A DNA stretch of 64,000 bases, from the NCBI GenBank assembly GCA_000687695.1, contig JHWZ01000014.1:1-64000 (forward strand), written 5' to 3'. A program made the translations under genes and the position numbers. Position 1 is the stretch's first letter, and each line of letters opens with the position of its first letter. Origin of the DNA: Lachnospiraceae bacterium P6B14 (GTDB lineage: Bacteria > Bacillota > Clostridia > Lachnospirales > Lachnospiraceae). Shown one piece after another: positions 17,290 through 44,613 of this stretch. The notes below the pieces were generated by a model that was not told the origin of the DNA, ran no database searches, and saw only the letters and a program-made list of their open reading frames with translations.

Positions 17290-17325
17290 CTAAAAAAACC
17301 GTCTGTACATAGATGTACAGACGGT
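17290..17325 (-). terminator. Terminator of the partner-switching operon
   Basis: A perfect 13-bp stem, ACCGTCTGTACAT-AG-ATGTACAGACGGT (17298-17325), followed on the minus strand by TTTTTTT. It ends the operon whose last gene, the STAS protein, stops at 17379, and lies only 20 bases before the porC start. Confidence 0.9.
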
Positions 17326-17354
17326 ATTATATCCTATTTAATGCAAAAATTCAA
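17326..17354 (-). promoter_or_regulatory. Promoter of the por operon, overlapping the upstream terminator
   Basis: Minus strand TTGAAT (17349-17354), 17-base spacer and perfect TATAAT (17326-17331). The -10 abuts the terminator stem, so the expected start near 17319 lies inside the hairpin. Only read-through RNA from upstream would contain both arms. Confidence 0.8.
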
Positions 17355-17378: not shown

Positions 17379-17678
17379 TTATTCGATATTCAGGATGTCA
17401 GTGAAGCCCGTCACATCAAAGATTTCCATGATATCATCGGACGCGTTCTTAATGACCATATCTCCCTGAGAGTTCATAACCTTCTGTCCTGAAAGCAGAA
17501 CCCTGAGTCCTGCACTCGAAATATACTCAAGCTTTGTCATATCTACAACAAGTGATGTTACACCGCCAAGCTCGTTTTTAACAACATTCTCAAGTTCAGG
17601 AGCTGTTGTTGTGTCAAGGCGTCCCTCGAGAGCCAGTGTAAGATCGTTTCCATTCTTCTCTTTTGTAATGTTCAACAT
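17379..17678 (-). CDS. STAS-domain anti-sigma factor antagonist
   Basis: Protein of 99 residues, a single STAS domain of the SpoIIAA/RsbV type: LEGRLDTTTAPELE, the phosphorylation loop YISSAGLRVLLS with the target Ser, and EIFDVTGFTDIL at the end. In partner switching the dephosphorylated form binds the RsbW-type kinase. The start at 17678 has AAAGGAGG 9 bases upstream; the longer frame has none. It is last in the operon after the ATPase gene and also has its own promoter (17735) with a hairpin in the leader, which could give extra antagonist. Its partners are encoded immediately upstream. Confidence 0.92.
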   Translation of the reverse strand: MLNITKEKNGNDLTLALEGRLDTTTAPELENVVKNELGGVTSLVVDMTKLEYISSAGLRVLLSGQKVMNSQGDMVIKNASDDIMEIFDVTGFTDILNIE

Positions 17679-17707
17679 GGTTGATATCCTCCTTTTACTG
17701 CTGTCGT

Positions 17708-17763
17708 CACGCTTCGGCGTGTCTCTCAAAGACTACTATACCATATTTGTTCAACAAACGCAA
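17708..17763 (-). promoter_or_regulatory. Internal promoter and leader hairpin for the STAS gene
   Basis: Minus strand TTGCGT (17758-17763), 17-base spacer with TGG extension, TATAGT (17735-17740). A tight CACGC-TTCG-GCGTG hairpin follows at 17708-17721. It lies in the gap after the ATPase gene. Confidence 0.6.
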
Positions 17764-17770
17764 ATCATTT

Positions 17771-18175
17771 TTACAATTTTTTTACTATCGTAAATATGTT
17801 TTTATTATCCTCACGTTTGTAGCTCACATCGTCCATGCTCTTTTTCACCATGAATATACCCAGACCGCCTATCGGCCTGTCCTCGGCGGAGAGCGTGATA
17901 TCCGGATCCTCCTTTGCCAAAGGATCATAAGGCGTACCCTCATCGATAAAGGTTATCTGCGCCTGCTCGGGGGTTATATCGAATTGGAGCACTGCCCCTC
18001 CGGCACCCTCTTCGCCGTACGCATAATGGGCGATGTTTACAAAAATCTCCTCAACGGCGATATCAAGTGATATCTGGGTTTTCATCGGACAGTCGCAAGC
18101 CTCGAGCTCCGCGTCCATAAACGCGAGTACCTCATTCAGGTTTTCGACCTTTGCGTCGATCTTCAGTTCTTTCAT
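17771..18175 (-). CDS. RsbW/SpoIIAB-type ATP-binding protein
   Basis: Single-domain GHKL kinase of 134 residues of the RsbW class. The N box is AVEEIFVNIAHYAY (about 43-56), the G1 box FIDEGTPYDPL and the G2 box RPIGGLGIFMVKK. Such proteins phosphorylate a STAS antagonist and bind a client, classically a sigma factor. Here the likely partners are the STAS protein just downstream and the PP2C phosphatase just upstream. No sigma factor gene is in the operon, so the client is unknown. It follows the phosphatase gene by 10 bases. Confidence 0.92.
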   Translation of the reverse strand: MKELKIDAKVENLNEVLAFMDAELEACDCPMKTQISLDIAVEEIFVNIAHYAYGEEGAGGAVLQFDITPEQAQITFIDEGTPYDPLAKEDPDITLSAEDRPIGGLGIFMVKKSMDDVSYKREDNKNIFTIVKKL

Positions 18176-18185
18176 ATTCTCCCCC

Positions 18186-20339
18186 TTAGTTTTCTTTTCC
18201 GTAGTATGTGAACGCCATCATAGTCAGGTCGTCAAACTGCGGAGCCTCGGCTACAAACTCTTCGATACTGTTTACAACATTACCGAGAAGCTCTTCGGGC
18301 TTTGCATCCGGATTTATATTCAGCGCATCCGTAAGTCTCTCCTCACCGAAAAGCTCATTGTTAGCGTCGGTAGCCTCCGTAACACCGTCCGTGTATACGT
18401 AAAGTGTATCTCCCGGAACAACCTCGAACTCATGCTCCTTGAACGGAAGACCTTCCATCGTGGCTACCGCCGGTGAGTGACGATATTTGATCAGCTCGAA
18501 GTTTCCATCCTTGTGACGAAGAGCAGGATGCTCATGTCCGGCGTTTGCCGCGAGTCCCTTCCCTGTATTCAGATCTATGATCGCAAGCCATACGGTTACG
18601 AAAAGCTCTGCCTCGTTACCCTCGCACATCTGATCATTTACATCCGAAAGGATCATCGCAGGCGAGCCACCCATCATGGCACGAGTCTTGATAGACGTCT
18701 TCGCTTTCGCCATAAACAGCGCTGCCGGCACTCCCTTCCCTGATACATCAGCCATAACGAGCACTATATGATTATCATCCGTCAGGAAGAAATCATAGAA
18801 ATCTCCTCCGACTTCCTTCGCAGGCGTCATCGACGCATACAGATCAAACATCGGATTATCCTTGTAATCATCGAAGTTTGTCGGCACCATGCTGGCCTGG
18901 ATATTGGTTGCCAGTGACAACTCACTCGCTATCCTCTGCTCCTTCGCAGTAATATCCGTGATATCCTTGATGTACTGTTTCATACGCTCTGTCAGTGACG
19001 AGAACGACTCAGCCAGCACCTGAATCTCATCTCCGGTATCAACATCCCACTCGAAATCGAGGTTTTCTCCCTTTATTTCCTCGACCTTGGCAGTGAGCTC
19101 TACGACCTCTCGTACGAGAACCTTTGCTGCCTTTTTCGATACAAAGAATGAAAGCACATACAGGATGATAAATACAACTACCATCGCGATCAGCACCATA
19201 CGGATCTGTCCGTTTGAGTCCTCGACCGCACGATCACTTGATTCCTCCAAAGACTTCAAAAGACTGTTCGTCGGCGCCTGCACCTCTGACTCGGGAATGA
19301 TCGTAAAGAACGTCCATCCGACAGTCTCAAGCGGAGAATACGCAACACAGCTGTCCACTCCGTCCAGGTTCAGTACCGCGATTCCTCTCTCGCCCTTCAC
19401 AGCCTTTGTGACCAGCTCTGCCAGATCTTTTTGATCGCTCTGTCTCAAATCCGTGATCTTTTCCAGATCGCAGGAGAATGTTTCCCCGCCACCTGATGAG
19501 AAAATGACCTTCCCCTCACCGTCGATCATACATGCATAACCGTTTTTACCTACTCGGGTTTCCAAAACGGCTTTCTCAAGCTCGGTAAGATACATTCCCG
19601 CACCGGCAACACCCATGAACTCTTTGCCTTTGTAGAACGGGACACCGCACATGATCCCGACGCCCGATGTATGAGCGTCACGTGACAGAGATGTAAAGAA
19701 CGGTGCCTGTTTTTCACTCGCTCCTATGTACCACGGTCTGGTATCAGCCTCGTAAGGCATTATATTTCCGTCTTCATCAAACTTCTTTTCCGCAATATAA
19801 TCAGCCTGGATCATTATTCCGCTCTTTGCAGCGATATAATTTGACACCATGTTCGGATCATTTTTGTTTACGGAAAGCAACGTGTCCTGCGCGTTTGCGA
19901 GCAATCCGAGTTCATTTTTTACATCCGCGCTCTCTGTATCTGTTTTCTCGGAAAAAAGCAGCTGAACGGAAAGTTTGCCTTTGTTTTTCGCATCCGGAAG
20001 AGGCACACTTCTTTCATAGTAATCATCAGCGTTGTCATACATATTCGATACGGTGTCGGCCACTGTCTTAACGCTGATCTGGAACTTCTTTAAAGCATTG
20101 TCGGCGCTATCCGCCTTTGCCTGTGCGGACTGCTGCAGACTCTCCTCTATCTGTCTTCTCATCGTCTCGGATGAGATCACCTCGGCATCCTGTCCCGCCT
20201 TCTCACTGGACTCGATAAATGTCGATCTGAGTCCGAAAATAGTGATGAACATGACGATGGCAACGATAACCAGTGCCGACTCGGTCATGACTATCGCAAC
20301 CCGGGAGATTTTTTCACGTAACGAACGACGTTTTTTCAT
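18186..20339 (-). CDS. Sensor PP2C phosphatase (Cache-HAMP-SpoIIE)
   Basis: Membrane phosphatase of 717 residues of the RsbU/SpoIIE type. Order: TM1 (about 15-36); an extracellular dCache-like sensor (about 45-350, with DTRPWYIGASEKQAPFF and GNGYACMI-like VGKNGYACMID); TM2 (MVLIAMVVVFIILYVLSFFV, about 378-398); HAMP (about 400-455) and a short coiled coil; then the PP2C domain (about 490-715). Metal-binding Asp motifs EVGGDFYDFF, MADVSGKGVPAALF and YTDGVTEATD are intact. It should dephosphorylate the STAS protein in response to an external ligand. The gene lies 21 bases after the acetyltransferase gene. Confidence 0.93.
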   Translation of the reverse strand: MKKRRSLREKISRVAIVMTESALVIVAIVMFITIFGLRSTFIESSEKAGQDAEVISSETMRRQIEESLQQSAQAKADSADNALKKFQISVKTVADTVSNMYDNADDYYERSVPLPDAKNKGKLSVQLLFSEKTDTESADVKNELGLLANAQDTLLSVNKNDPNMVSNYIAAKSGIMIQADYIAEKKFDEDGNIMPYEADTRPWYIGASEKQAPFFTSLSRDAHTSGVGIMCGVPFYKGKEFMGVAGAGMYLTELEKAVLETRVGKNGYACMIDGEGKVIFSSGGGETFSCDLEKITDLRQSDQKDLAELVTKAVKGERGIAVLNLDGVDSCVAYSPLETVGWTFFTIIPESEVQAPTNSLLKSLEESSDRAVEDSNGQIRMVLIAMVVVFIILYVLSFFVSKKAAKVLVREVVELTAKVEEIKGENLDFEWDVDTGDEIQVLAESFSSLTERMKQYIKDITDITAKEQRIASELSLATNIQASMVPTNFDDYKDNPMFDLYASMTPAKEVGGDFYDFFLTDDNHIVLVMADVSGKGVPAALFMAKAKTSIKTRAMMGGSPAMILSDVNDQMCEGNEAELFVTVWLAIIDLNTGKGLAANAGHEHPALRHKDGNFELIKYRHSPAVATMEGLPFKEHEFEVVPGDTLYVYTDGVTEATDANNELFGEERLTDALNINPDAKPEELLGNVVNSIEEFVAEAPQFDDLTMMAFTYYGKEN

Positions 20340-20360
20340 TTGCTGTCCCCTTTCATTCTT

Positions 20361-21431
20361 TTAATTATTTACATGCCTGTTTTTGTAGAATTCCTGAATA
20401 TACTCCCTGATCTCGGCAAAGGAATCAGTCAGAACATAATCCTCCATACACAGGTTCCAATCATCTACCCACTGCATATAAAGCTGCTCCCTTTTTCCGC
20501 AGACCGGTTTAAATCCGGTAAAGAAATATCCGGCTTTTTTTAACTCCTCATAGTTTTTAAGAATAGTCGGCGTATCATCATACAAAGCGATCTGTATACT
20601 GTAATACCCTTTTCCGCGATAGGTCTTTACAAGCTCGGTCATTTTTTCTGCCAGGTCAAGGCCTTCGTTTATCACCAACACCTCGATAAACTCCTGCGAC
20701 TCGTCGACCTTGATCCTGTATTCACCCTCGGCAGGCAGCGTATCAGTCACCTCACCAGACGTGCGTATCTCGCATAATACACCTATCCTGTCATATATCT
20801 TTTTCCCGAACGGAGCCAACTCCTCCGGAAGATATATAACACCTGCTTCGCGTTTTTTAACAGGCTCTATCATGATACCCTCGGAATGCTTGTCACAGTG
20901 TCCCTTCGGGTAACTGTTTTTCATTTTTTCGGTCAAAAATCTTCCCAAACGGAATCCCACCGGGAACATCCCTCTTTTCTCACATGTCCCCTGAGTAAAG
21001 GAATGGAATGTGACCGCATGAACAAAAATCGACGGGATATCCATCGCCTCCAGAATATCGTAGGTATAGTTGACCAGCGCTATGGACAACCCGTATCCGC
21101 GATACTCCTTGGCAAGAATCTGCGACGCAGGCTCAACACACTCATCGATTTCCGAAAAATGCGTAAAAATCTCCATTCCGGCGATCTCTCCGTCTGCCTC
21201 TCCGACAAAAAAGTCATAGTCTCCCGACTTCGCATGCTCCCTGATCCATGCCTCGTCATAGAAGTAAGGTTTAAAATAACTGTCACCATACTCCGCACGG
21301 ATGCATGCCATCATGCCTTTCTCGTCACCGTCTTTAAACGGTCGAAGAATAAACTCCTTCTCGACGCCGGTCTTTGAGTTTTTCAGCATGACGCTGACCG
21401 GCTTTGCACCTGATGTTTCCTCTCTCCCCAT
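20361..21431 (-). CDS. GNAT family acetyltransferase with C-terminal extension
   Basis: Protein of 356 residues. The first 170 residues are a GNAT fold: FILRPFKDGDEKGMMACIRA, VGEADGEIAGMEIF, and the acetyl-CoA loop LAKEYRGYGLSIALVNYTYD. A second domain (about 200-340) has weak GNAT-like character (MTELVKTYRGKGYYSIQIAL, LKKAGYFFTGFKPVCGKREQ), so this may be a tandem GNAT. The substrate is unknown. It lies between the MATE-ATPase fusion (15 bases upstream) and the phosphatase, so it is built into the partner-switching operon. No signal peptide. Confidence 0.85.
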   Translation of the reverse strand: MGREETSGAKPVSVMLKNSKTGVEKEFILRPFKDGDEKGMMACIRAEYGDSYFKPYFYDEAWIREHAKSGDYDFFVGEADGEIAGMEIFTHFSEIDECVEPASQILAKEYRGYGLSIALVNYTYDILEAMDIPSIFVHAVTFHSFTQGTCEKRGMFPVGFRLGRFLTEKMKNSYPKGHCDKHSEGIMIEPVKKREAGVIYLPEELAPFGKKIYDRIGVLCEIRTSGEVTDTLPAEGEYRIKVDESQEFIEVLVINEGLDLAEKMTELVKTYRGKGYYSIQIALYDDTPTILKNYEELKKAGYFFTGFKPVCGKREQLYMQWVDDWNLCMEDYVLTDSFAEIREYIQEFYKNRHVNN

Positions 21432-21446
21432 ATTTCTCCCTTTTTA

Positions 21447-23240
21447 TCACAGCTCGACGATCAGGTTGTTCACACCCAGTGTTCTTTTAAACGTGATCAT
21501 CTTTGCTTTATTGTTTATCAGACGAATTCCCAGTGATTCATCTTCTAAAAGTTCCTCCGGTGTCATCTTTTCTATCTTGTCACGATACCATTTGATCGGA
21601 TCAAAAATAGGTCCTCCGCATCGGATACGTAAAACGATCCCCTGTTCATCCACCATCATTCTGACGTCAGCGAATTTTTTCTCATCCTCACCGAGACATC
21701 TCTCGTTCATGATGACCAAAAGCTCCTCCAGCGCGAGCGGAAGGCTCATGGCAAATCTCGGATCGATATCGTTCTTTTCACAGAACTCCTCCATCATCAT
21801 CGAAGCGGATACAGCTCCCTCTTTGTTACCGCGCACGGAGAACGAGTATATGTTTTCTCCCTCTTTTTCCACCTGCTTCAAAAGAAGAAGTCCCTTTAAC
21901 TCAGGTTTTCGTTTTCGCTTTCTCGCCGATACCGCGAACATGCATCCCACACAGGCGAACTCGGCGATAGGAAATGCTGCCATATACCACTTTCCGAGTC
22001 CCGTAACAAAGAATAACGAAGCAAAAAGAACGACCAGCAAAAATGCCCTCAAAAATGTAAGTAGCAGCGCTATTTTATTCTCACCGATAGCCGTATAAAA
22101 ATAGATATATACATTTATGATCGCTGCCGGTATCAGACTGAATGCCGCCATCTGTATGGCAAACGCGGCGTCCGACAAAATATGACTGTCATGTATTCCG
22201 AAAAACTCAGCCAAAGGTTTTGCACATACTGCTATCCCTATAAACAATACTCCATGGATTATCAAAGAATATGAGCGCGTTCTCCTCATCAGAAGCCTGA
22301 TACTCACCAGATCACGTTCACCGTAAAACACGCCCGCAAGCGGAGCCACCGTCTGTCCGCATCCGAATACCGATGCAGACGTAAAGGAGATGATCGAACA
22401 TGCCACCGCAAAAGCACTGGCAGAATCCGCTCCGAGAAACCGCAAAACAAGGAAGTTCATAACGAGTGTCCTGAACATGTTGCAAAGGTTGTTAAGTCCC
22501 GAAGCACCTCCCGTAACACATACTGCCATCGTAAGAACTATAAAGCGCTTAAAACCGAATCTGCGCGGATGGATCTGAGCCTTTTTCCCGAAAAACAGGA
22601 TAAGCACCCCGATTATATCCGCTATCGCTGTACTGATCACCGTAGCCCACGCTACACCCATCATGCCCCATCCGTTCTCCAAAAACACTACCAGGAGCAC
22701 TACGTCTATCACACCCATCATAAGAAAAATAAGCATGGGCGTCTTTGCTCTTCCGTCGAGCCTGAGAAAGTTGAACGGAAAATACATTAAGGTCGTCAAA
22801 AATCCGAAGACCAGCATGAGCTCCGCATAACTTTTCATAAATGAAAACAGAGCCTCATCGCATCCCATGAGAAACATGAAAGGTTTGAGAAAAATAAGGA
22901 TCAAAGCCGAGATCACCGCAGGCATCAAAATCGATGCAATAAATGCGTAAGACTCATATTCTCCGACTTCCTTTTCTTCTCCCTTTCCCATGGATACGGA
23001 AGCTCTGGCACTCGCTCCGATGTTTATCAGACATCCGAACATTGCAAATAAAAATGTAAACGAACTGAGAAGATTCATCGCGGTCAGCGCCTGTTTTCCC
23101 AGATATCGTCCTGCCAAAAGCGTGTTGATAAACTGTACTGCCGTTGTCCCCAGTATAGCGAGGATGGTCGGCACCAGATACCGCTGCAATGTCTTCTTTA
23201 TGAAGTAATCATTTGTTGTGTGTTCTATATTCTCGTTCAT
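21447..23240 (-). CDS. MATE transporter fused to RsbW-type ATPase domain
   Basis: Membrane protein of 597 residues. Residues 1-455 form a 12-TM MATE/MviN-type exporter (FINTLLAGRYLGKQALTAMN, GCGQTVAPLAGVFYGERD). Residues about 470-597 form a GHKL ATPase domain of the anti-sigma kinase class: N box LALEELLVIMNE, G1 RCGGPIFDP, G2 ESLGIRLI. A MATE carrying a regulatory kinase domain is unusual in textbook systems. It is the first gene of the operon, directly after promoter 23262, and is followed by the acetyltransferase, phosphatase, RsbW-type and STAS genes. The STAS protein may therefore gate the transporter. This is inference from linkage. Confidence 0.88.
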   Translation of the reverse strand: MNENIEHTTNDYFIKKTLQRYLVPTILAILGTTAVQFINTLLAGRYLGKQALTAMNLLSSFTFLFAMFGCLINIGASARASVSMGKGEEKEVGEYESYAFIASILMPAVISALILIFLKPFMFLMGCDEALFSFMKSYAELMLVFGFLTTLMYFPFNFLRLDGRAKTPMLIFLMMGVIDVVLLVVFLENGWGMMGVAWATVISTAIADIIGVLILFFGKKAQIHPRRFGFKRFIVLTMAVCVTGGASGLNNLCNMFRTLVMNFLVLRFLGADSASAFAVACSIISFTSASVFGCGQTVAPLAGVFYGERDLVSIRLLMRRTRSYSLIIHGVLFIGIAVCAKPLAEFFGIHDSHILSDAAFAIQMAAFSLIPAAIINVYIYFYTAIGENKIALLLTFLRAFLLVVLFASLFFVTGLGKWYMAAFPIAEFACVGCMFAVSARKRKRKPELKGLLLLKQVEKEGENIYSFSVRGNKEGAVSASMMMEEFCEKNDIDPRFAMSLPLALEELLVIMNERCLGEDEKKFADVRMMVDEQGIVLRIRCGGPIFDPIKWYRDKIEKMTPEELLEDESLGIRLINNKAKMITFKRTLGVNNLIVEL

Positions 23241-23261: not shown

Positions 23262-23290
23262 ATTATACCACATAATTATGGTAAATTCAA
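23262..23290 (-). promoter_or_regulatory. Promoter of the partner-switching operon
   Basis: Minus strand TTGAAT (23285-23290), 17-base spacer and TATAAT (23262-23267), the same hexamers as the por promoter. The spacer contains the 10-bp palindrome CATAATTATG (23271-23280), a possible operator. GGAGG follows before the start at 23240. Confidence 0.8.
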
Positions 23291-30905: not shown

Positions 30906-32582
30906 TCAAGGAATAATGTTTTTCCCCATCACTACTGCACAATCTTTTTTAACCTTTTTAAGCGTCTCTATCATGTACTTCTCGGGAATCGCAACACAGC
31001 CTGCGGTCCACGGACGCACCTTGAAGCAGTGAAGGAAGATAGCCGAACCGAGACCGTCCTCACCTTTTTCATTCCAGCTGATGTTCATCGCGTATTGGTA
31101 CGCTAGGTTTTCTTCGATCAGGTGCTCCGAGTCATCATCATAGATAAGCTCCGGATGCTCTGATTTCTTTACTGGCTGATTGTAGAACGGACCATTTTTT
31201 CCGTACCAGTAATCATCATCGGTAAGTTTCATATACGGAAATGCGGTGCAGCCCGGATCGTCTGCGATTCCAAACGCATGAGTAAAGTGATATACACCTA
31301 CAGGTGAGGCACCGCTTCCCTCGAAACGATTCTCGTACATGCCTGTTCTTCCGATAAATCCGTATGTCGTAAAGATCGTCTTCCAGTTTCCTTTTGTGTC
31401 TTTCTCGTAGAAGCCGATATCCGCGTTTGTGCCATCGAGTCCGTTTACGACCATAACCTGACTTACATTCTTAAGCTCATCCATATCTCTCGGCAGAGCC
31501 AATGCGTTCTCGAGTGATATCGGCTCTCTTTCAAGATAGTAAATTCTAAGTGTATAAATGTCATTTACGCTAAGTCCCAGTTTCTCACGTGCGTAAGCAT
31601 CGACGGAACCGCTTGTCTGATCCATATAATCAAGTGCGATCTCGATACGCTGAGCATCAAGCCCTGCTGCAGTATCAGGCATGAACTCGGCGGTCAGCAT
31701 GTAGTCCTGAAGGATAGTCTGTCTGTCGACATTCAGGATCGACAGAAGGATAGCCGCAAGAAGACCTGTTCTGTCCTTGCCGTATGTGCAGTGCCAGAGC
31801 ACGGCGTGTTTTCCATGATCAGCTACTATAGCTTTGAGCGCCTTAGAGAGAGACTCTACTGCACTCGGATCCTTTTCAAGCAGAGTACGGTATAAGTTTT
31901 TCGGATATGTCTTTTTTACAGGGTCATCGTATTTATCTACGATATCCAAAGGGGCTTTGATATAATCTACACCCTCTATTGTCGGATCCGGAGCCTTTTT
32001 GATTTCCGACTCGATTCGAAGATCGATATCAAGTCCGACATTATATTTATTCTTCAGGATTCCGAGATCCTCGTTCGATGCCGTGTCAAGTTTGGATGTT
32101 CTGAGGAGCATACCCTTTTTCACGGTCCATCCGTCTTTGGTTTTATACCCACCGAGCTCTCTGGCGTTTAAAACCGATGTTATCGGGAGAGCCTGCGCAC
32201 TCTTCTTTACAGTTTGGTTTGCCTTATTTACGGTAACCTTGCAGGTAAGCTTCTTTGTCTTGGTCTTTTTGCCGACCTTGTACTTAACACCGGCTGTAAT
32301 GGTCGAGGTACCCTCGTACTTACCGACAACTACAACACCTGATTTGGTTTTGCTCGCCAGGGTTACGTTTTGGTTTGAAGCCTTCCAAGTGGTCTTAACG
32401 AGCTTTTTAGCGGTGAACTTAACCTTGAGTGACTCTCCCTCTGACTGATTTACAAAAAGTCCTGTATTAGAGAGTATCGGTGCGCTCGAGGCATTAACGT
32501 CCGTATTTATTCCGACAGCAGCAGACGGAGCCAGAAGTGCGAGTGCCATAATCATGGCGATTATTCTGTTTCTGATTTTCAT
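30906..32582 (-). CDS. Exported tyrosine phosphatase-L,D-transpeptidase fusion
   Basis: Protein of 558 residues with an unusual domain order. A signal peptide (MKIRNRIIAMIMALALLAPS) is followed by an Ig-like module (about 35-120). Next is a protein-tyrosine-phosphatase domain (about 130-350), with LNARELGGY and the P-loop HCTYGKDRTG (Cys265, Arg271). Last is a YkuD-type L,D-transpeptidase domain (about 370-558), with FLHCFK (His518) and TAGCVAIPE (Cys529). Both active sites look intact. Start chosen at the second of two tandem ATGs, 7 bases after AGGAGG. The transpeptidase part should act on peptidoglycan; the role of an exported phosphatase is unclear. Co-transcribed with the ACT gene. Confidence 0.85.
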   Translation of the reverse strand: MKIRNRIIAMIMALALLAPSAAVGINTDVNASSAPILSNTGLFVNQSEGESLKVKFTAKKLVKTTWKASNQNVTLASKTKSGVVVVGKYEGTSTITAGVKYKVGKKTKTKKLTCKVTVNKANQTVKKSAQALPITSVLNARELGGYKTKDGWTVKKGMLLRTSKLDTASNEDLGILKNKYNVGLDIDLRIESEIKKAPDPTIEGVDYIKAPLDIVDKYDDPVKKTYPKNLYRTLLEKDPSAVESLSKALKAIVADHGKHAVLWHCTYGKDRTGLLAAILLSILNVDRQTILQDYMLTAEFMPDTAAGLDAQRIEIALDYMDQTSGSVDAYAREKLGLSVNDIYTLRIYYLEREPISLENALALPRDMDELKNVSQVMVVNGLDGTNADIGFYEKDTKGNWKTIFTTYGFIGRTGMYENRFEGSGASPVGVYHFTHAFGIADDPGCTAFPYMKLTDDDYWYGKNGPFYNQPVKKSEHPELIYDDDSEHLIEENLAYQYAMNISWNEKGEDGLGSAIFLHCFKVRPWTAGCVAIPEKYMIETLKKVKKDCAVVMGKNIIP

Positions 32583-32690
32583 CATGTTCCCTCCTTGATA
32601 TTTTTCTTGTTTTCTCCCACGCATGTACTATGGTAACATAAAACAGGCTGAAATACAACATAAGAATAGGGAGCGGCTCAACTTGCTGTT

Positions 32691-32886: not shown

Positions 32887-34062
32887 CTATGGGATCGGAT
32901 GAAGCGTATCGATCGTAGAAAACAGCTTTTTCTTCGCCTTACTTATCACCGGTTTCCTGAGCATATTCGGGACTGTTGGCGATGTCGCTACACCACGAAT
33001 AAACTTTATCTGCGAGTATCCCGCGATGATCCGGTTTATCTCTTCGAGCTCTTTTTTATCCGATGTATTAAAATACTTCGCCAGGATGATTTCCCATACC
33101 CTTGCAAATTCCTTTTGTCCGAGGACTCCCTTGATCTTTCCCCATCCGTGCTTTGCAGCCGTCACATATACCAGATGCATTGATGACAGGTCAAGTATGG
33201 GATGTCCCAAACCGGAGTCCTCGACATCTATAAGAACGATCTCCCCGTTTTGATACATAATATTTCCGGGATGAAAATCCTGGTGTATAAAAGTGTTTCT
33301 TTCCGGAATATCATCGATCAGCTTCATCAGCCTTGCCGTCTCATCTTCGGTGTAGTAGCCACGATCCGCCGCGGCGCGTATGTCAGCTCGCGCATTGTTC
33401 CTGGCATCCTGCAGAGAGCCCGGCTCCAACTCGATCTGATGGAGTTTGATGAGTGTATCCGCTATTAAATTTGCATACCTGTCTAAGTCGTCCGGATGAG
33501 ACCCCAGTTCCTGGAGCATGGACTTTGCATCGATCATCTCATATACAACTCCGTAATCCTCTCCGACTTTGACAACATCAAACGCAATAGCCGAAGGGAT
33601 CCCTTGTACAAAAACGCTTTTGGTAACCTCTTTGTTCTTGCGGATCTTCTCAAGACTGTTGCGTTCTCCGTAGTACACCTTGGCTATAGTTTCCGGATCC
33701 AGTCGGTAAACAACTCCGTTTCCGCCTTCACCGATCATTTCACATCCTTCAACACTGATCTCTCGAAGTCTCTTTTGGACGTCAAAAAGATCCGTAAACC
33801 CGGTCGTATCAAAAATGTCATAAACCTCAGGAGAAACCTCGGTAACGGCAATCTCCGCTCCCACACTCTTTTTTACCTTCATAAGTACGCGAAGACCGGC
33901 ACTTGAAATGTAGACAAGCTCTGAGGCATCAAAAACCGGATTTGCCCCCTCGTTCTCGGAAAGGATTCTCTGGATTTCTTCATCAATCTGAGATGCATTG
34001 TTGGTATCAATACGTCCCTCAAGAAAAATAGTTACTTCTTTTCCCGTTTTCTCCGATCTCAT
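32887..34062 (-). CDS. STAS domain fused to APH-like kinase (TIGR02172-like)
   Basis: Protein of 391 residues. Residues 1-100 are a STAS domain with YISSAGLRVLMK and DIFDTTGFTDLF, closely resembling the free STAS protein at 17379. Residues about 108-391 are a kinase of the aminoglycoside phosphotransferase fold: MIGEGGNGVVYRLD (nucleotide loop), IAKVYYGE (Lys), catalytic loop FIHQDFHPGNIMY and metal motif LIDVEDSGLGHP. This matches the TIGR02172 family of small-molecule or protein kinases. Its start overlaps the stop of the preceding gene (ATGA). The substrate is unknown; the STAS part suggests coupling to partner switching. Confidence 0.87.
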   Translation of the reverse strand: MRSEKTGKEVTIFLEGRIDTNNASQIDEEIQRILSENEGANPVFDASELVYISSAGLRVLMKVKKSVGAEIAVTEVSPEVYDIFDTTGFTDLFDVQKRLREISVEGCEMIGEGGNGVVYRLDPETIAKVYYGERNSLEKIRKNKEVTKSVFVQGIPSAIAFDVVKVGEDYGVVYEMIDAKSMLQELGSHPDDLDRYANLIADTLIKLHQIELEPGSLQDARNNARADIRAAADRGYYTEDETARLMKLIDDIPERNTFIHQDFHPGNIMYQNGEIVLIDVEDSGLGHPILDLSSMHLVYVTAAKHGWGKIKGVLGQKEFARVWEIILAKYFNTSDKKELEEINRIIAGYSQIKFIRGVATSPTVPNMLRKPVISKAKKKLFSTIDTLHPIP

Positions 34063-35840
34063 TGGTTGCCCTCCTTTTTCAACCTGATATTTTTCAGCAT
34101 GGCCAAAACGCTCTTTGCACAGGTTTCGGCAGCTTCTTTCTTAAAAGATTCATATTCGACACTATGAGATCCATCGGATTTATCCGAGATGGCCCGCAAC
34201 ACCACAAAGGGCGTACCATTCAGATAACATGCCTGTGCGATAGCTGCTCCCTCCATCTCACAACACAATCCGCCAAAGTCAGATACGATCTTTTCCTTCT
34301 GCTCTTTATCGGAAATGAATTGATCCCCGGAACAGATTCTTCCTTCATAGACATGGATATTTGGAAAGTTCTCCTGCACGGCCGCGACCGCCGCCTTACG
34401 CATCGACTCATCCGCCGGAAATGCATAAAGGCCGGTATATGGTATTTCTCCCTTTGCAAATCCGATTGCCTCTACGGTAAAATCATGCTGAACAGCGTCA
34501 ACCGACACAACAATATCTCCGATATCCAGTTTATTGTCCAGTGAACCGGCAACACCGGAATTGATGATCTTTACGCAGCCATAATTGTTGATCAGTGTGT
34601 TCGCACATATACCGGCATTGACTTTTCCCATACCACACTGTACGATGACAACATTTTTCCCTTCGATGGTACCCTCGCAAAACTCCATACCGGCAATCTT
34701 CGTTGTTTTTTTGATATCGGCTGTCTTCTTCAGGAGGCTGACTTCTTCCTCCATCGCACCGATAATCCCAATCGCCTCCGCATTCTTATCCCCATCCGAC
34801 TCGCCTTTCATGCCCTTGGAATACATGTCGGAATAGACACTGGTAATCGATGTCGGAAGTTCAAAGTGCTGATAATCCTTGCGGTCTGTCCAGTCACCGC
34901 CCCATTCAAATCCTTTTTCGATGAAAAGCCGGTAGCAGAGGTCATCCTTTTCAATCTTATAATCAAAATCTTTCGTCCTGTCGAGATAAGGCGCGCCGGT
35001 TGCCGGCTCTATCAATTCCTTCACTGTACCATCCTCGTTTGTCACGAATTTGTGGTACGGGTTGTACAGGGTATTGATATCAACAGCCATTCCCAAACCA
35101 TGTTTCGATACCGTGGTCGTATGCGATATGAATCGGAAATTGAAACTGGATGAATTGTTATCCCTCATCTGGGTTTCATCATCCGCCATATAATTATCAG
35201 GTAATACCATCCGCTCAATCGGATAGTCCGCATCATATAGTTTTTCGAGTATTTCCAGAACATCCTCAGCGATGAGCTTGTGCACCACCATCTCTCCCTG
35301 ATGCACATTCCCATCCTTATCCTTGTGCAATGCCTGTATGTATCGCAGATCCTCACGTGGAACTATACAATCCTCTTTATATGTATTTCCCTGTTTCATT
35401 CTGTAAAACAGTTCATCCGTTATAGGCCAGATAGAAAAACCGGCCCTGTCAGCTTTGATTGGTTTATACTCCTGTTTCTCTTTTTTTGCAACCCTTACAG
35501 TTAGAGAAAGCTTATACGTCTTCTTGGTCTTAATCTTCAGATAAACGGTTGTGCTTCCCGTCTTCTTTCCGTTGATCCGTATCGCCGTCTTTTTCCCTGC
35601 ACCGGCAGACACAGCCGATACGATCGATTTGTCCTTAACGCTTACCGTGAGTTTCTTTACGCTCTTTTTTGTTGTATTCTTTATTTTGATGGTAGCACTG
35701 TCACCTACCAAAATAGAAACTCTTTCATATGCAAGAGCGGGTTTCTTCGCTGAAGCTTCTGCCGGGGCAGAAATAATAGCTCCTATCAGCAAAACTCCAA
35801 CCATGACTACACTCATTATTTTTCTGATTTTCTTCATCAT
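34059..35840 (-). CDS. Exported M15 peptidase-MTA/SAH nucleosidase fusion
   Basis: Protein of 593 residues. A signal peptide (to about residue 31) is followed by an Ig-like module (about 36-118). An M15-type zinc peptidase domain (about 130-330) keeps His247 and Asp254 in SKHGLGMAVDI and His325 in KDYQHFEL. The last 240 residues (about 355-590) are a complete 5'-methylthioadenosine/S-adenosylhomocysteine nucleosidase: IGIIGAMEEEVSLL, CEMEGAAIAQ and RAISDKSDG carry the catalytic acids. The nucleosidase is normally cytosolic, so its fusion behind a signal peptide is very odd. The frame is continuous across the junction. Overlaps the STAS-kinase start by 4 bases. Confidence 0.87.
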   Translation of the reverse strand: MMKKIRKIMSVVMVGVLLIGAIISAPAEASAKKPALAYERVSILVGDSATIKIKNTTKKSVKKLTVSVKDKSIVSAVSAGAGKKTAIRINGKKTGSTTVYLKIKTKKTYKLSLTVRVAKKEKQEYKPIKADRAGFSIWPITDELFYRMKQGNTYKEDCIVPREDLRYIQALHKDKDGNVHQGEMVVHKLIAEDVLEILEKLYDADYPIERMVLPDNYMADDETQMRDNNSSSFNFRFISHTTTVSKHGLGMAVDINTLYNPYHKFVTNEDGTVKELIEPATGAPYLDRTKDFDYKIEKDDLCYRLFIEKGFEWGGDWTDRKDYQHFELPTSITSVYSDMYSKGMKGESDGDKNAEAIGIIGAMEEEVSLLKKTADIKKTTKIAGMEFCEGTIEGKNVVIVQCGMGKVNAGICANTLINNYGCVKIINSGVAGSLDNKLDIGDIVVSVDAVQHDFTVEAIGFAKGEIPYTGLYAFPADESMRKAAVAAVQENFPNIHVYEGRICSGDQFISDKEQKEKIVSDFGGLCCEMEGAAIAQACYLNGTPFVVLRAISDKSDGSHSVEYESFKKEAAETCAKSVLAMLKNIRLKKEGNQ

Positions 35841-37496: not shown

Positions 37497-38826
37497 CTAC
37501 ACCTCCTGTACTTTGCACATTCCATAGCTAAACAGCTTTTCCTTTTTAATAAAACGAACATATCCATACATCAGCCCAATCGCCACCACCGGTCCTGACG
37601 CTATACCTACCGCTATTCCCTCAAGTGCGATCTGCCCGAACAGCATCGAAAAAAGTATCGGCAACACAGCAATAGCCATACCGATCATTACGATCGCGCG
37701 AAGCACTCTTCTCGTGTATTGGTAGAATATTCCTGCAACACGTGAAAAGCATATAAAGATTGTTGCAGGAGCCAGTATTATGAGCATTATAGTTGCGCGC
37801 CCGGCAGTCTCGGCATCATCGATATCAAAAGCCGCCGGCATAATGAATGACGTACACAGTATGATGGCGGTCAGCACAATACCCTCTATCATAGCTGCAC
37901 GTTTTGTGATCTTTATGGAATAATCCATACGTTCACTGCTGTTTTTACCTATACTGTCATTCATCGCAACAATTTCATAGTCACTTATTCCTTCGCTCAG
38001 ATAAAACACGAACTCAAAGACATTTATCACTATTGCTACGGCTGCGACTCCGGATGCTCCGTAGTTTTCAAGAGTATTGGTATTTACCACCATTTCAAAC
38101 AAAACCATAAATATAGCAAGTGCACTTTCCGGAAAACCTACCCTTGCTATCTCCAGTACTTCCCGGAAGTTCAGGTGCCATCTGAACCTGATCCCGTGTT
38201 TTTTTTGTGAATAAAAATGTGCATATTATAAGGAGCTCAACCATGATCGATATTACCGAAGCTAATCCCACTCCAAAAAGTCCCATCTGAAGACCAAGCT
38301 GCCAGGAGAGCAAAGCATTTATGCCTACTCTGGATACGCCCGCAACATAATACTGCACATAGCCACCGCGATACAACACATATGTAAATAAAAAGGTATC
38401 AAACAAATCCACAAGCGGATCGAACCGCATCGCGTTGAAGTAATCCAGCGCACCATCATACACAGCCGGATCATCCGCCACAAGCCGGACAAGATCGGGC
38501 GTAAAAAGAGTATAAATCGAAGTCAGAATAATCCCGCAAATACCGCACACTATCAACGTCTGGCTGAATAAATCTCCCATTTTTTTGTGGTCGCCTGCAC
38601 CATGTGCCCTTACTATAAACGCTGCTGCAGCTACACTTATGAGATATCCGATAAACACTTCAAAATATATGTACGGTTCTATTAGATTGACAGATGCAAA
38701 CGCCTCATCCGTAGAGATACTTCCGATCACAATCTCATCTACTAAAATCGCTATCTCTTCAAGTAAAATGGCAATAGTTGCCCCGATGAATACCGGGAAA
38801 AATCTTATATCTCTTTTATCCGGCAT
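37497..38826 (-). pseudogene. MATE family transporter, frameshifted at an A8 tract
   Basis: Two overlapping frames make one 442-residue MATE transporter. The first (from 38826, after GGAGG) runs from MPDKRDIRFFPVFIGAT to FLFTKK and then loses homology. The other frame continues with HGIRFRWHLNFREVLEIARV through to the stop at 37497. The shift falls at eight consecutive A residues on the coding strand (38199-38206); seven would restore the frame. It may be a true pseudogene, a slippage-prone on/off switch or an assembly indel. It lies between the MATE-ATPase fusion gene and the PreA-like gene. Confidence 0.8.
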
Positions 38827-38844: not shown

Positions 38845-40587
38845 TTAATTTTGATCATATTTTACCAGGAACGAACTTCTGTTAAAACTCATTGTTGTCA
38901 GGTGTCGGTTGTCGAAATCTCTCTTCTCCAGATAAGACGCAACAGTATAAGCAGAAAGAGATTTGATGCTTAAGTCCTCATCTGCCATATCGAAAGAAAC
39001 CCCTCCGTCCTTTGAGATGAGTTGAACCCCCTCAGGTCTGATAAATACCGTACATTCGGCAAGAACTGCTTTGTTATCATTCATCTGCCTTATGAACATA
39101 TTCATCTCTTCTACAAGCAGCGTGACGCGACCGATCGTTCGGTTATCTACGCTGTGATCATGTAAAAGCGTCTCAATCTCGTGCTGCACCCTTATGATAT
39201 CCTCCGGATCAGTACTCAGATTATAGGTATAACCGGTTTCGTCCCCGAAAGTCCTATTCAGAAGCAAAGGACTATCCTCCTTGCCATAACGGAGCCTTAA
39301 GAACAGTACCACGGCAAAATATGCAACAATCGGTCCTCCTAAAAGACCGACAAATACACCGAATATATTCAGAACTACTCCAAATATAACAACAAGAGAT
39401 ACACTGAAGATGATATCTCGCATGGCACAGGCGATAAGTCCCAATAATATCCTCTCTATGATCAGATAGTAGGATGTAACAAGATATAACAGACTGACAA
39501 AAACAGAGCCAAGTGCCGTCACACGTACAGTCTCCTGCACATATTGGGCGAGTTCGGGCGATGTTACGTCCAAAATAGACGGCACAAATGGTGCAAAAAT
39601 GATCAATGCGACCGATACTGCTATTCCCTCTATGATAGCCGTTTTCTGCGCAAGCGCATAGATGTAGCGCAAACCATCTTTGCTGTGTTCCCCGTAGTAT
39701 ACGCTCAGAATAGGTGAAACCGCCTCTCCGATGCCATCAAAGAGTAACTGAAACTCCCTACACAGTGTTATGGTTGAGACTATGATCAGATACTGTGAAC
39801 CGAACCTCGCACTGATAAAAACATTAAGTATCGCAGTGAAAGCAGCGAGGAAAAGGTATGAACTGGAATCGATGATGCTGTAGCGCACCACATCCTTTAA
39901 TACTCTAAACGAAAAATAAAGATTGAACCGAAGAGAATTGCTCTTCTTCAAAAAGTGGATCAGATAGATCAGCAGAGAAACGGCACCAAATATGAATGAA
40001 GCAAGCCCGATGCCCCTGATCCCCATAAACTGACTCAACACAACTGAAAAAACAATGTTACCAAGACCCTGCACACCGCTTGCAATGGTGGAGATAGTCT
40101 CATCACCATCGCTGTATACCGCTTCACCTATAAGCATCTGTACGGGCATGATCAGGATCGTAAATCGCATCCAGGAAAGATAACCCGAAGCCTGCGAAAA
40201 AATCTGCCCATTAACACCATCGCTTTTTAAATATGCCTCTCCAAACAGACTTATCGCTACAAACATAATTACTCCGATCACAATGGACATAAGTAACCCC
40301 AGACCGAAAACCTGATCGGCTCTTTCCTTGTTGAACTTGCCCATCTCGGTAGAGTAAAGGATCGGTACTCCTAATGATATCACAGATCCGAAAAACGCTG
40401 CAAGCGAATACATCGGAGTCACCAACGTGACGCCTGCTACGGCATCTGAGCCAACAACGATACCGGCAATAATGGAATCCGACATCAAAAGCAAAGAAAC
40501 CACTATCATGGTCAAAGTACCGCCAAGCAGCATGGAATAAAACTTTTTTGACATCAGCGTGGGCCGGTTTTTCTTTAATAGACTCAT
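38845..40587 (-). CDS. MATE transporter with degenerate ATPase-like C-terminal domain
   Basis: Membrane protein of 580 residues: a 12-TM MATE core (about 15-440; MLLGGTLTMIVVSLLLMSDS, GIGEAVSPILSVYYGEHS) and a C-terminal domain of about 130 residues resembling the RsbW ATPase fold. The N-box region reads LLVEEMNMFIRQM, where the usual Asn is out of place, and KDGGVSFD stands for the G1 box; no clear G2 glycine motif is seen. It is thus a likely non-kinase relative of the fusion at 21447. GGAGGAAG precedes the ATG. First gene of the accessory cluster, with promoter 40637. Confidence 0.83.
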   Translation of the reverse strand: MSLLKKNRPTLMSKKFYSMLLGGTLTMIVVSLLLMSDSIIAGIVVGSDAVAGVTLVTPMYSLAAFFGSVISLGVPILYSTEMGKFNKERADQVFGLGLLMSIVIGVIMFVAISLFGEAYLKSDGVNGQIFSQASGYLSWMRFTILIMPVQMLIGEAVYSDGDETISTIASGVQGLGNIVFSVVLSQFMGIRGIGLASFIFGAVSLLIYLIHFLKKSNSLRFNLYFSFRVLKDVVRYSIIDSSSYLFLAAFTAILNVFISARFGSQYLIIVSTITLCREFQLLFDGIGEAVSPILSVYYGEHSKDGLRYIYALAQKTAIIEGIAVSVALIIFAPFVPSILDVTSPELAQYVQETVRVTALGSVFVSLLYLVTSYYLIIERILLGLIACAMRDIIFSVSLVVIFGVVLNIFGVFVGLLGGPIVAYFAVVLFLRLRYGKEDSPLLLNRTFGDETGYTYNLSTDPEDIIRVQHEIETLLHDHSVDNRTIGRVTLLVEEMNMFIRQMNDNKAVLAECTVFIRPEGVQLISKDGGVSFDMADEDLSIKSLSAYTVASYLEKRDFDNRHLTTMSFNRSSFLVKYDQN

Positions 40588-43980: not shown

Positions 43981-44553
43981 CTACAGGTATGGATCCTCCA
44001 CACCCTCTTTTTTCAACTCTTCTTTCATACGGGTCTTCCCTCTCTGAAGGAGATGATCAACCCTTTTCGGCTTAACCTTCATAACATCCGCCACCTGCGC
44101 GTAGCTCAAGCCATCAAAATACACCAGGTACAGAACTTCTCTGAGCTCGGGCTCTATACGGGCCAGGCATTTGTTCAGTATCTCTGTTTTTTCATTCTGA
44201 ACAGCAGTACCCTCGGTGGATTCATCTGAAGCCAGAACCTCCTCCATACCATCCAGATCAAAGGTCTCTATCATGGATGATTTCTTCAGATGCCTGGCTG
44301 TAAGGTTTCTGCCGGTCTTAAAAAGATATGCCTTAAAACAGTTCTCCGATATCCACGGGCGTTTCACCATGATACGCGCGAACGCCTCTATCATCAGATC
44401 CTCCGCATCCTGATAATCATGTACCATACCGTACAGATACCAGAGCAGGCTGTCTCCGTGGCGGAGCATAAGCTCATCATATGCGGTGGAGTCACCCTTA
44501 AGAAATCCGGCGTACAGCTCGTCGTCGGACGGGATTGAATCTTTCTCGCTCAT
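43981..44553 (-). CDS. ECF-type RNA polymerase sigma factor
   Basis: Protein of 190 residues with region 2 ([38 protein letters not shown]) and region 4 ([20 protein letters not shown] then [20 protein letters not shown] with the helix-turn-helix). The start at 44553 follows GGAGAGG. The promoter is a good sigma-A match, with no clear ECF-type AAC motif at -35, so autoregulation is not obvious. It opens a three-gene operon with a 7-TM protein and a PrsW-type protease, and diverges from uvrB. Confidence 0.9.
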
Positions 44554-44584
44554 CGGGTCACCTCTCCACACATTTAATGAATAT

Positions 44585-44613
44585 ATTATACGAAAAATAT
44601 CCCGAAAAATCAA
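44585..44613 (-). promoter_or_regulatory. Promoter of the ECF sigma operon
   Basis: Minus strand TTGATT (44608-44613), 17-base spacer, TATAAT (44585-44590). Confidence 0.75.

Follow-up and report, generated by a model that had tools for sequence, protein, structure and literature searches.

The element analyzed here is a five-gene operon of Lachnospiraceae bacterium P6B14, located on the minus strand from position 23240 to 17379 of a 64,000-nt stretch (JHWZ01000014.1, positions 1-64,000), referred to below as the window. In the order of transcription, the operon encodes a MATE exporter with an additional C-terminal domain, a GNAT-fold protein, a phosphatase combining a dCache sensor with a PP2C domain, a free RsbW-like kinase, and a STAS-only antagonist (Table 1). 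An earlier note on this DNA had proposed such an operon, and all five genes were found in their places. The first four genes are separated by 15, 21, and 10 nt, and a longer gap of about 90 nt precedes the STAS gene.

Table 1. Features of the MATE-STAS operon and its predicted transcription signals (window positions)
Feature	Position	Strand	Length	Details
MATE exporter (residues ~12-445) with C-terminal degenerate RsbW/GHKL-like domain (~463-597)	21447..23240	minus	597 aa
Degenerate RsbW-like domain, approximate boundaries	21447..21854	minus		Strand-helix order of the model; HATPase_c_2 in family members
GNAT-fold protein	20361..21431	minus	356 aa
dCache (extracytoplasmic), weak HAMP, PP2C/SpoIIE phosphatase	18186..20339	minus	717 aa
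Free RsbW-like Ser kinase	17771..18175	minus	134 aa	HATPase_c_2 5.3e-24; intact N, G1, and G2 boxes
STAS-only antagonist (RsbV-like)	17379..17678	minus	99 aa	STAS 4.8e-15
Operon promoter, putative sigma-A type with extended -10	23262..23290	minus		TTGAAT-17-TATAAT, 10/12 match
Putative separate promoter before STAS	17735..17763	minus		TTGCGT-17-TATAGT, TG before -10, 8/12 match
Intrinsic terminator	17298..17325	minus		12-bp stem, -19 kcal/mol, z -7.0

The transporter part of the first protein is recognized by Pfam (MatE, 2.4e-30) and has the MATE fold. The GNAT identity of the second protein, proposed in the earlier note, is weak in Pfam (0.0016, just under the cut-off), but the GNAT fold is confirmed in the N-terminal half of a confident structure model, with the R-G acyl-CoA loop in place; this protein is probably an acyltransferase. 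By eye, its C-terminal half could be another GNAT-like domain. Scanning the genome contigs with this protein yielded 32 pattern matches, none of them a relative.

The Cache-HAMP-PP2C architecture claimed for the third protein stands in its two main parts, dCache_1 (1.4e-17) and SpoIIE (2.2e-46), whereas the HAMP match is weak (0.048, under the cut-off). Four PP2C catalytic motifs (GGDFYD, DVSGKG, DGVTEA, and DDLT) are found in the phosphatase. The Y-x4-R-x-W-Y motif of the dCache_1AA amino-acid sensors is present in the window Cache domain and in 14 of 29 PP2C sequences. The following Asp of the motif is also present in the window, and the presumed position of the last Asp, placed by what we take to be the motif spacing and by the presumed W128 and D146 of the dCache_1AA sensor, is occupied by Gly. 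The residues of this sensor motif include Y121, R126, Y129, and D173 (PMC10104139).

The free RsbW-type ATPase and the STAS antagonist were both identified as proposed. In the kinase, N47, D78, G80, and GGLG are invariant among nine homologues from such modules. The STAS open reading frame was called from a TTG at 17729, and the ATG at 17678, which lies behind AGGAGG, is the likelier start; of the conserved Ser-Ser pair of this protein, the first serine is found in 16 of 17 sequences (Thr in the remaining one) and the second in all 17. The PP2C motifs, the GHKL kinase boxes, and a STAS protein with a putative phosphorylatable serine together fit a partner-switching module of the RsbU/RsbV/RsbW type.

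The single promoter suggested for the operon, at 23262, is only partly supported: the site has an extended -10 element, but such sites occur in the region at chance frequency (17 versus 15.8 in shuffled sequences, standard deviation 4.4) and a second candidate precedes the STAS gene. Because the latter site lies within the rsbW-STAS gap, the STAS gene may also be transcribed from its own promoter. The strong terminator described earlier is supported by the energy of its hairpin, which is accompanied by a T run. On the same strand, positions 17326-17354 match a promoter in 10 of 12 positions, the match ending exactly at the start of the terminator hairpin; because it abuts the hairpin, the next operon may start from a promoter that overlaps the MATE-STAS terminator.

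The degenerate RsbW-like domain of the exporter

The predicted structure of the fusion protein is confident (pLDDT 88.2, pTM 0.86), and residues 463-596 form the succession beta-alpha-alpha-beta-beta-alpha-alpha-beta-beta, the order expected of the RsbW fold. The window tail alone matches HATPase_c_2 weakly (0.017, under the cut-off); among the 26 window-type members, 17 match it at E<=0.01, with the best value of 2.6e-10. In a structure search with the full model, the rows shown mainly cover residues 8-458 and are MATE and MurJ proteins, with no RsbW/SpoIIAB chains among them. The best PDB match of a sequence profile of the tail is RsbW 6m36, at a nonsignificant E of 0.19.

In alignment with the free RsbW encoded alongside it, the window tail has Ile in place of the N-box Asn and Cys in place of the G1 Asp. 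Both residues are absent from all 26 full-length window-type sequences, that is, the window, 21 of the 24 loci from named genomes described below, and four family members; an active kinase on the transporter was rejected on these grounds. The tails of the clade share just 27-47% identity with the window tail; their length and fold are conserved, and two Glu in helix 2, Asp/Arg in the strand that follows, and a Gly are invariant. The RsbW-type ATPase domain that the earlier note saw on the MATE protein is thus related to HATPase_c_2 by sequence, but its ATP/Mg residues are gone, and, judging from the sequence, it looks like a kinase-dead RsbW-like reader rather than an intact ATPase. Such a tail could bind STAS, yet should not phosphorylate it, because the N-box Asn and the G1 Asp are lost. 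The dead tail set against the intact free RsbW suggests a division of labour between reader and kinase.

Distribution and genomic context of the fusions

A scan of named genomes, for which the closer alignment A1 was used since alignment A3 was too variable, identified 24 loci with a window-type fusion; three of these (L196, L199, and L206) are the same records as the family loci L048, L047, and L049. The carriers include Eubacterium xylanophilum ATCC 35991 (L194), Robinsoniella peoriensis (L199), and Sporofaciens musculi (L204), as well as metagenome-assembled genomes called Oscillibacter, Gracilibacteraceae, and Christensenella. The co-occurrence that the earlier note had proposed to look for is conserved: within 5 kb of the fusion, GNAT was found at 23 of the 24 loci (counting partial frames in L190, at a contig end, and in L208), PP2C at 21, RsbW at 16, and STAS at 14. 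In 6 of the 16 RsbW-bearing loci, RsbW is fused to PP2C. Some of the gene absences are due to contig ends. Ten of the loci have no STAS within 5 kb; the genomes of four of them (L194, L197, L198, and L199) were searched, and all four have a close STAS-only protein elsewhere (E from 8e-40 to 1e-43). In two close relatives, L188 and L189, the operon occupies seemingly the same place, flanked by trp genes and 2-oxoacid oxidoreductase genes, as judged by eye. At L203 (7771-8364), a 197-aa protein without a Pfam match is encoded just upstream of STAS and by eye resembles another degenerate GHKL protein.

In the family, the tail profile matched 70 of 397 genomes (141 rows), and 101 of the 141 rows lie in open frames of 560-720 aa, the size of the fusion, which PP2C-RsbW fusions can match as well. 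On the phylum scale, matches were found in 10 of 299 genomes, four of these from the family of the window. In other families of the phylum (L232-L235), MATE fusions lie beside Cache-PP2C genes; the N-box Asn is, by eye, missing from their tails, L235 retains the Asp, and a free RsbW was detected at three of these loci (L233, L234, and L235).

Sixty regions were fetched from the upper part of the 141-row list, taking long-frame matches down to an E of about 1e-12; they were ranked by likeness to the window-type domain and favour its clade. These regions contain 74 MATE fusions, of which 16 have lost the Asn, 11 of them together with the Asp. The remaining 58 keep the Asn, and nine of these have PP2C or free RsbW within 4 kb. 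MATE fusions are a larger family than the kinase-dead type. In P6B14 itself, further MATE fusions with both Asn and Asp are found on contigs C12, C1, and C5, and the window contains a second MATE fusion (38845-40587, minus strand) with a diverged RsbW-like tail, in which Phe replaces the N-box Asn and the G1 Asp is kept; no PP2C or RsbW was found within 6 kb of it. This fusion adjoins a MATE gene split into two overlapping frames (37497-38108 and 38095-38826, minus strand), which is either a broken gene or an assembly error.

Of the 74 fusions, 12 have a PP2C gene within 2 kb, 17 within 4 kb, and 19 within 6 kb. From the PP2C density in the same genomes, 0.7, 1.2, and 1.6 cases would be expected, and the maxima in 20,000 simulations were 6, 8, and 9. 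Among the listed genes of seven genomes, with the positions of 16 of the 21 PP2C genes used, PP2C was found within about 6 kb of none of 76 plain MATE genes versus 7 of 13 long-frame MATE genes. Chance adjacency is rejected by both comparisons. The genome G307 (regions L102, L111, L136, L139, and L140) has 25 PP2C and eight tail-profile matches, an unusually large partner-switching repertoire.

Related domains are not confined to MATE exporters. The L049 module also contains an SDF symporter whose N-terminal domain is about 120 aa long, and searches with two such domains gave matches in 10 and 9 of 250 genomes. Among 24 aligned SDF symporters with N-terminal extensions of more than 110 aa, the N-box Asn is missing in 23, and 12 reach 1e-4 or better against local RsbW-like profiles. 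Two SDF fusions are found in full modules (L049 and L187); in L187, the symporter gene lies between a pair made up of STAS and PP2C-RsbW and a STAS-APH fusion, and in L113 and L139 an SDF fusion adjoins a MATE fusion. An ABC ATPase of L088, encoded between STAS and the MATE fusion, has a C-terminal RsbW-like copy (hhalign probability 84) with Gln and Tyr at the two ATP positions. By sequence comparison, then, RsbW-like domains, some of them weakly detectable, occur on SDF symporters and on one ABC ATPase, partly in the same operons. The P6B14 genome also encodes two SDF symporters with N-terminal RsbW-like extensions, at L026 (4710-6359, contig C9) and L181 (8353-9933, contig C2); the stretches fetched around them showed neither PP2C nor STAS nor free RsbW.

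The companion enzyme varies within the clade. For instance, GNAT characterizes the window type, GH3 is found in L086 (by Pfam) and in L088, L089, and L100 (by eye), and ATP-grasp proteins are found in L089 and L100 (by Pfam) and in L095 (by eye). What recurs is one switch together with an exporter, a small-molecule-modifying enzyme, and in some cases an importer. At L127 (7106-7987), an LPG_synthase_C-like protein adjoins a MATE fusion that has PP2C and RsbW.

Other unusual fusions are encoded on the minus strand of the window. A STAS domain is joined to an APH-type phosphotransferase at 32887-34062. Across the genome, STAS is matched five times in frames about 400 aa long, and proteins of this STAS-APH type are encoded next to a MATE fusion in L090 and next to an SDF fusion in L187. 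Two further odd combinations are a D-alanyl-D-alanine carboxypeptidase (Peptidase_M15_4) fused to a PNP_UDP_1 phosphorylase/nucleosidase domain (34059-35840) and a Y_phosphatase3 domain fused to a YkuD L,D-transpeptidase domain (30906-32624).

A transporter as candidate output of the switch

With moderate confidence, we suggest that the operon is a partner-switching module with a transporter as its output, so that the switch may act on transport itself rather than on gene expression. The dCache domain would sense an external ligand and set the activity of the PP2C domain, and the phosphatase and the free RsbW kinase would set the phosphorylation of STAS at its conserved Ser-Ser pair. The kinase-dead tail of the MATE protein, with its fold kept and its ATP site lost, would be a docking, or reader, domain. 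Dephosphorylated STAS would bind the tail and thereby change transport, phosphorylated STAS would not bind it, and STAS would thus switch between the kinase and the transporter domain; the GNAT protein could make or modify the exported compound. The sensor-phosphatase-kinase half of this scheme draws on established Rsb/SpoII biology, and the tail is proposed as the STAS target because of its fold, its lost residues, and its linkage. We count in favour of a transporter output the complete set of switch genes beside the fusion together with the lack of a sigma gene in the operon, as well as the conserved linkage, the loss of Asn and Asp in the tails but not in the free RsbW, the related domains on other transporters, and the related modules outside the family. 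That no sigma factor is encoded here, as the earlier note had it, holds for the operon: no client sigma factor was found in it, and a sigma factor encoded within it was rejected.

Several observations weigh against this interpretation. PP2C or free RsbW lies within 4 kb of 11 of the 16 Asn-lost fusions, compared with 9 of the 58 Asn-kept ones, but the Fisher p of 8.5e-5 overstates the evidence, as Asn/Asp loss and linkage are mostly found in one clade plus one pair. This clade (SH-aLRT 92) comprises 10 of the 16 Asn-lost fusions; both residues are lost in all ten members and nine are linked, while in the tenth (L095) the contig stops inside the downstream Cache protein. The pair, L127 and L143, has lost the Asn and is linked. 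Since residue loss and linkage are largely traits of one clade, they are not independent evidence, and a test on the tree for independent evolutionary replication of loss with linkage found too few independent pairs. Four Asn losses are unlinked (L144, L117, L140, and the window fusion at 38845), and the linkage to STAS alone (5 of 16 Asn-lost versus 7 of 58 Asn-kept fusions) is not significant (p 0.12). At L194, L198, L208, and L210, no RsbW was found within 5 kb despite sufficient room, and L208 has no PP2C within this distance either. As for the symporters, the SDF domain of L186 has Asn at the N-box place, the SDF fusions of L049 and L187 do not match the local RsbW-like profiles and were assigned by alignment alone, and the SDF domains of L049 and L026 are singly weak in hhalign, the latter matching HATPase_c_2 at 0.0014, under the cut-off.

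The strongest rival is a sigma factor client. In this case, the client of RsbW would be encoded elsewhere, the transporter and GNAT genes would be merely co-transcribed members of the regulon, and the tail would be passive or self-assembling. There are 15 Sigma70_r2 matches in the genome, including an extracytoplasmic function (ECF)-like gene in the window (43981-44613), and ECF-type sigma genes near five modules also speak for this possibility: in L199 the ECF gene lies 23 nt after rsbW (by Pfam), in L093 it stands between PP2C and the fusion, in L232 and L233 it is oriented convergently to the module, and the fifth case is L206, the record shared with L049. However, a local search for ECF-type genes found none in the fetched DNA of 22 of the 24 named loci, several of which are incomplete. 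Further, the sigma genes found are of the ECF type, whereas the classic clients of RsbW and SpoIIAB are of the SigB/SigF type, and a sigma client offers no reason for the retention of an RsbW-like domain by several classes of transporters. We consider this explanation rather unlikely.

GHKL kinases of the RsbW type are dimers, and here intact and dead copies of the same fold family are encoded side by side; moreover, the RsbW gene overlaps the fusion gene in L085 and L104. These features would fit a pseudokinase scaffold, in which the MATE tail pairs with free RsbW and brings the kinase to the membrane or adjusts it, with STAS acting elsewhere. Such a pairing is harder to reconcile with the fusion of RsbW to PP2C in 6 of the 24 named loci and with the eight loci that have no RsbW found nearby, half of which are cut by contig ends, and we regard it as improbable. 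Finally, the lost ATP residues and the 27-47% identity of the tails could mean that the MATE tail is a drifting leftover of a formerly active kinase domain and is retained solely for folding or dimerisation. The length, the fold, and several residues of the tail are nevertheless invariant, and the linkage to switch genes is strongest exactly in the kinase-dead clade. Because of these conserved residues and this linkage, the passive remnant is less likely, and we give it very little credence.

Going beyond the transporter output of the P6B14 operon, kinase-dead RsbW domains could be a portable reader module of Clostridia, attached to MATE exporters, SDF importers, and an ABC ATPase, so that one STAS phospho-switch would exert direct post-translational control over uptake, over export, and over the enzyme that processes the compound in between (GNAT, or GH3 with ATP-grasp). 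We put this generalization forward tentatively, at somewhat less than an even chance. The same switch may also act through the STAS-phosphotransferase (APH) fusions as an additional output.

Relation to known systems

Partner switching is known mainly as a means to free sigma factors. The P6B14 module resembles RsbU-RsbV-RsbW and SpoIIE-SpoIIAA-SpoIIAB in its sensor PP2C phosphatase, its GHKL Ser kinase with intact boxes, and the Ser-Ser pair of its STAS protein; it differs from them in that the operon has no sigma gene and that a second, kinase-dead GHKL domain belongs to an exporter. In the MlaB-MlaF system, MlaB is a constitutive subunit and no kinase/phosphatase switch is known, and the transporter is of a class other than MATE. 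Its likeness to the P6B14 operon is the STAS protein within an ABC transporter complex, described in a paper on transporter regulation (PMC7367683). The SLC26/SulP proteins are similar in that a transporter is fused to part of the STAS/anti-sigma toolkit (PMC8256260). In SLC26/SulP the fused part is STAS, whereas in the P6B14 MATE protein it is the kinase-fold partner.

A functional precedent is SiaABCD of Pseudomonas aeruginosa, in which a phosphatase, a kinase, and a binding protein that acts unphosphorylated control a non-sigma effector (PMC8457831). In that system a diguanylate cyclase is bound at its stalk, and SiaC-SiaD is a precedent for the direct action of an unphosphorylated partner on such an effector (PMC8457831). 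The candidate effector in P6B14 is a transporter with an RsbW-like tail. A match to the NCBIfam model of SiaA (3.3e-20, 72 bits) is far under its cut-off of 700.

The module itself is of a known type, and what appears to be new is the candidate output, a transporter whose RsbW tail is kinase-dead. Among the open-licence PMC papers listed by full-text searches for such a fusion or for non-sigma partner switching, none describes this output in its title or the start of its abstract. The STAS-only proteins SypA, BtrV, RbaV, and HmpV likewise appear to be the switch output, and the direct targets of these and, more generally, of several non-sigma partner-switching systems are described as unknown or unclear (PMC8256260), whereas the P6B14 operon encodes a candidate target. 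The loss of the ATP-site residues provides a residue-level reason why the tail should read the phosphate signal rather than write it. If the proposed scheme holds, it would be a new bacterial way of gating transport directly by an outside ligand, and annotators could use it to spot regulated transporters in Clostridia of the gut and rumen.

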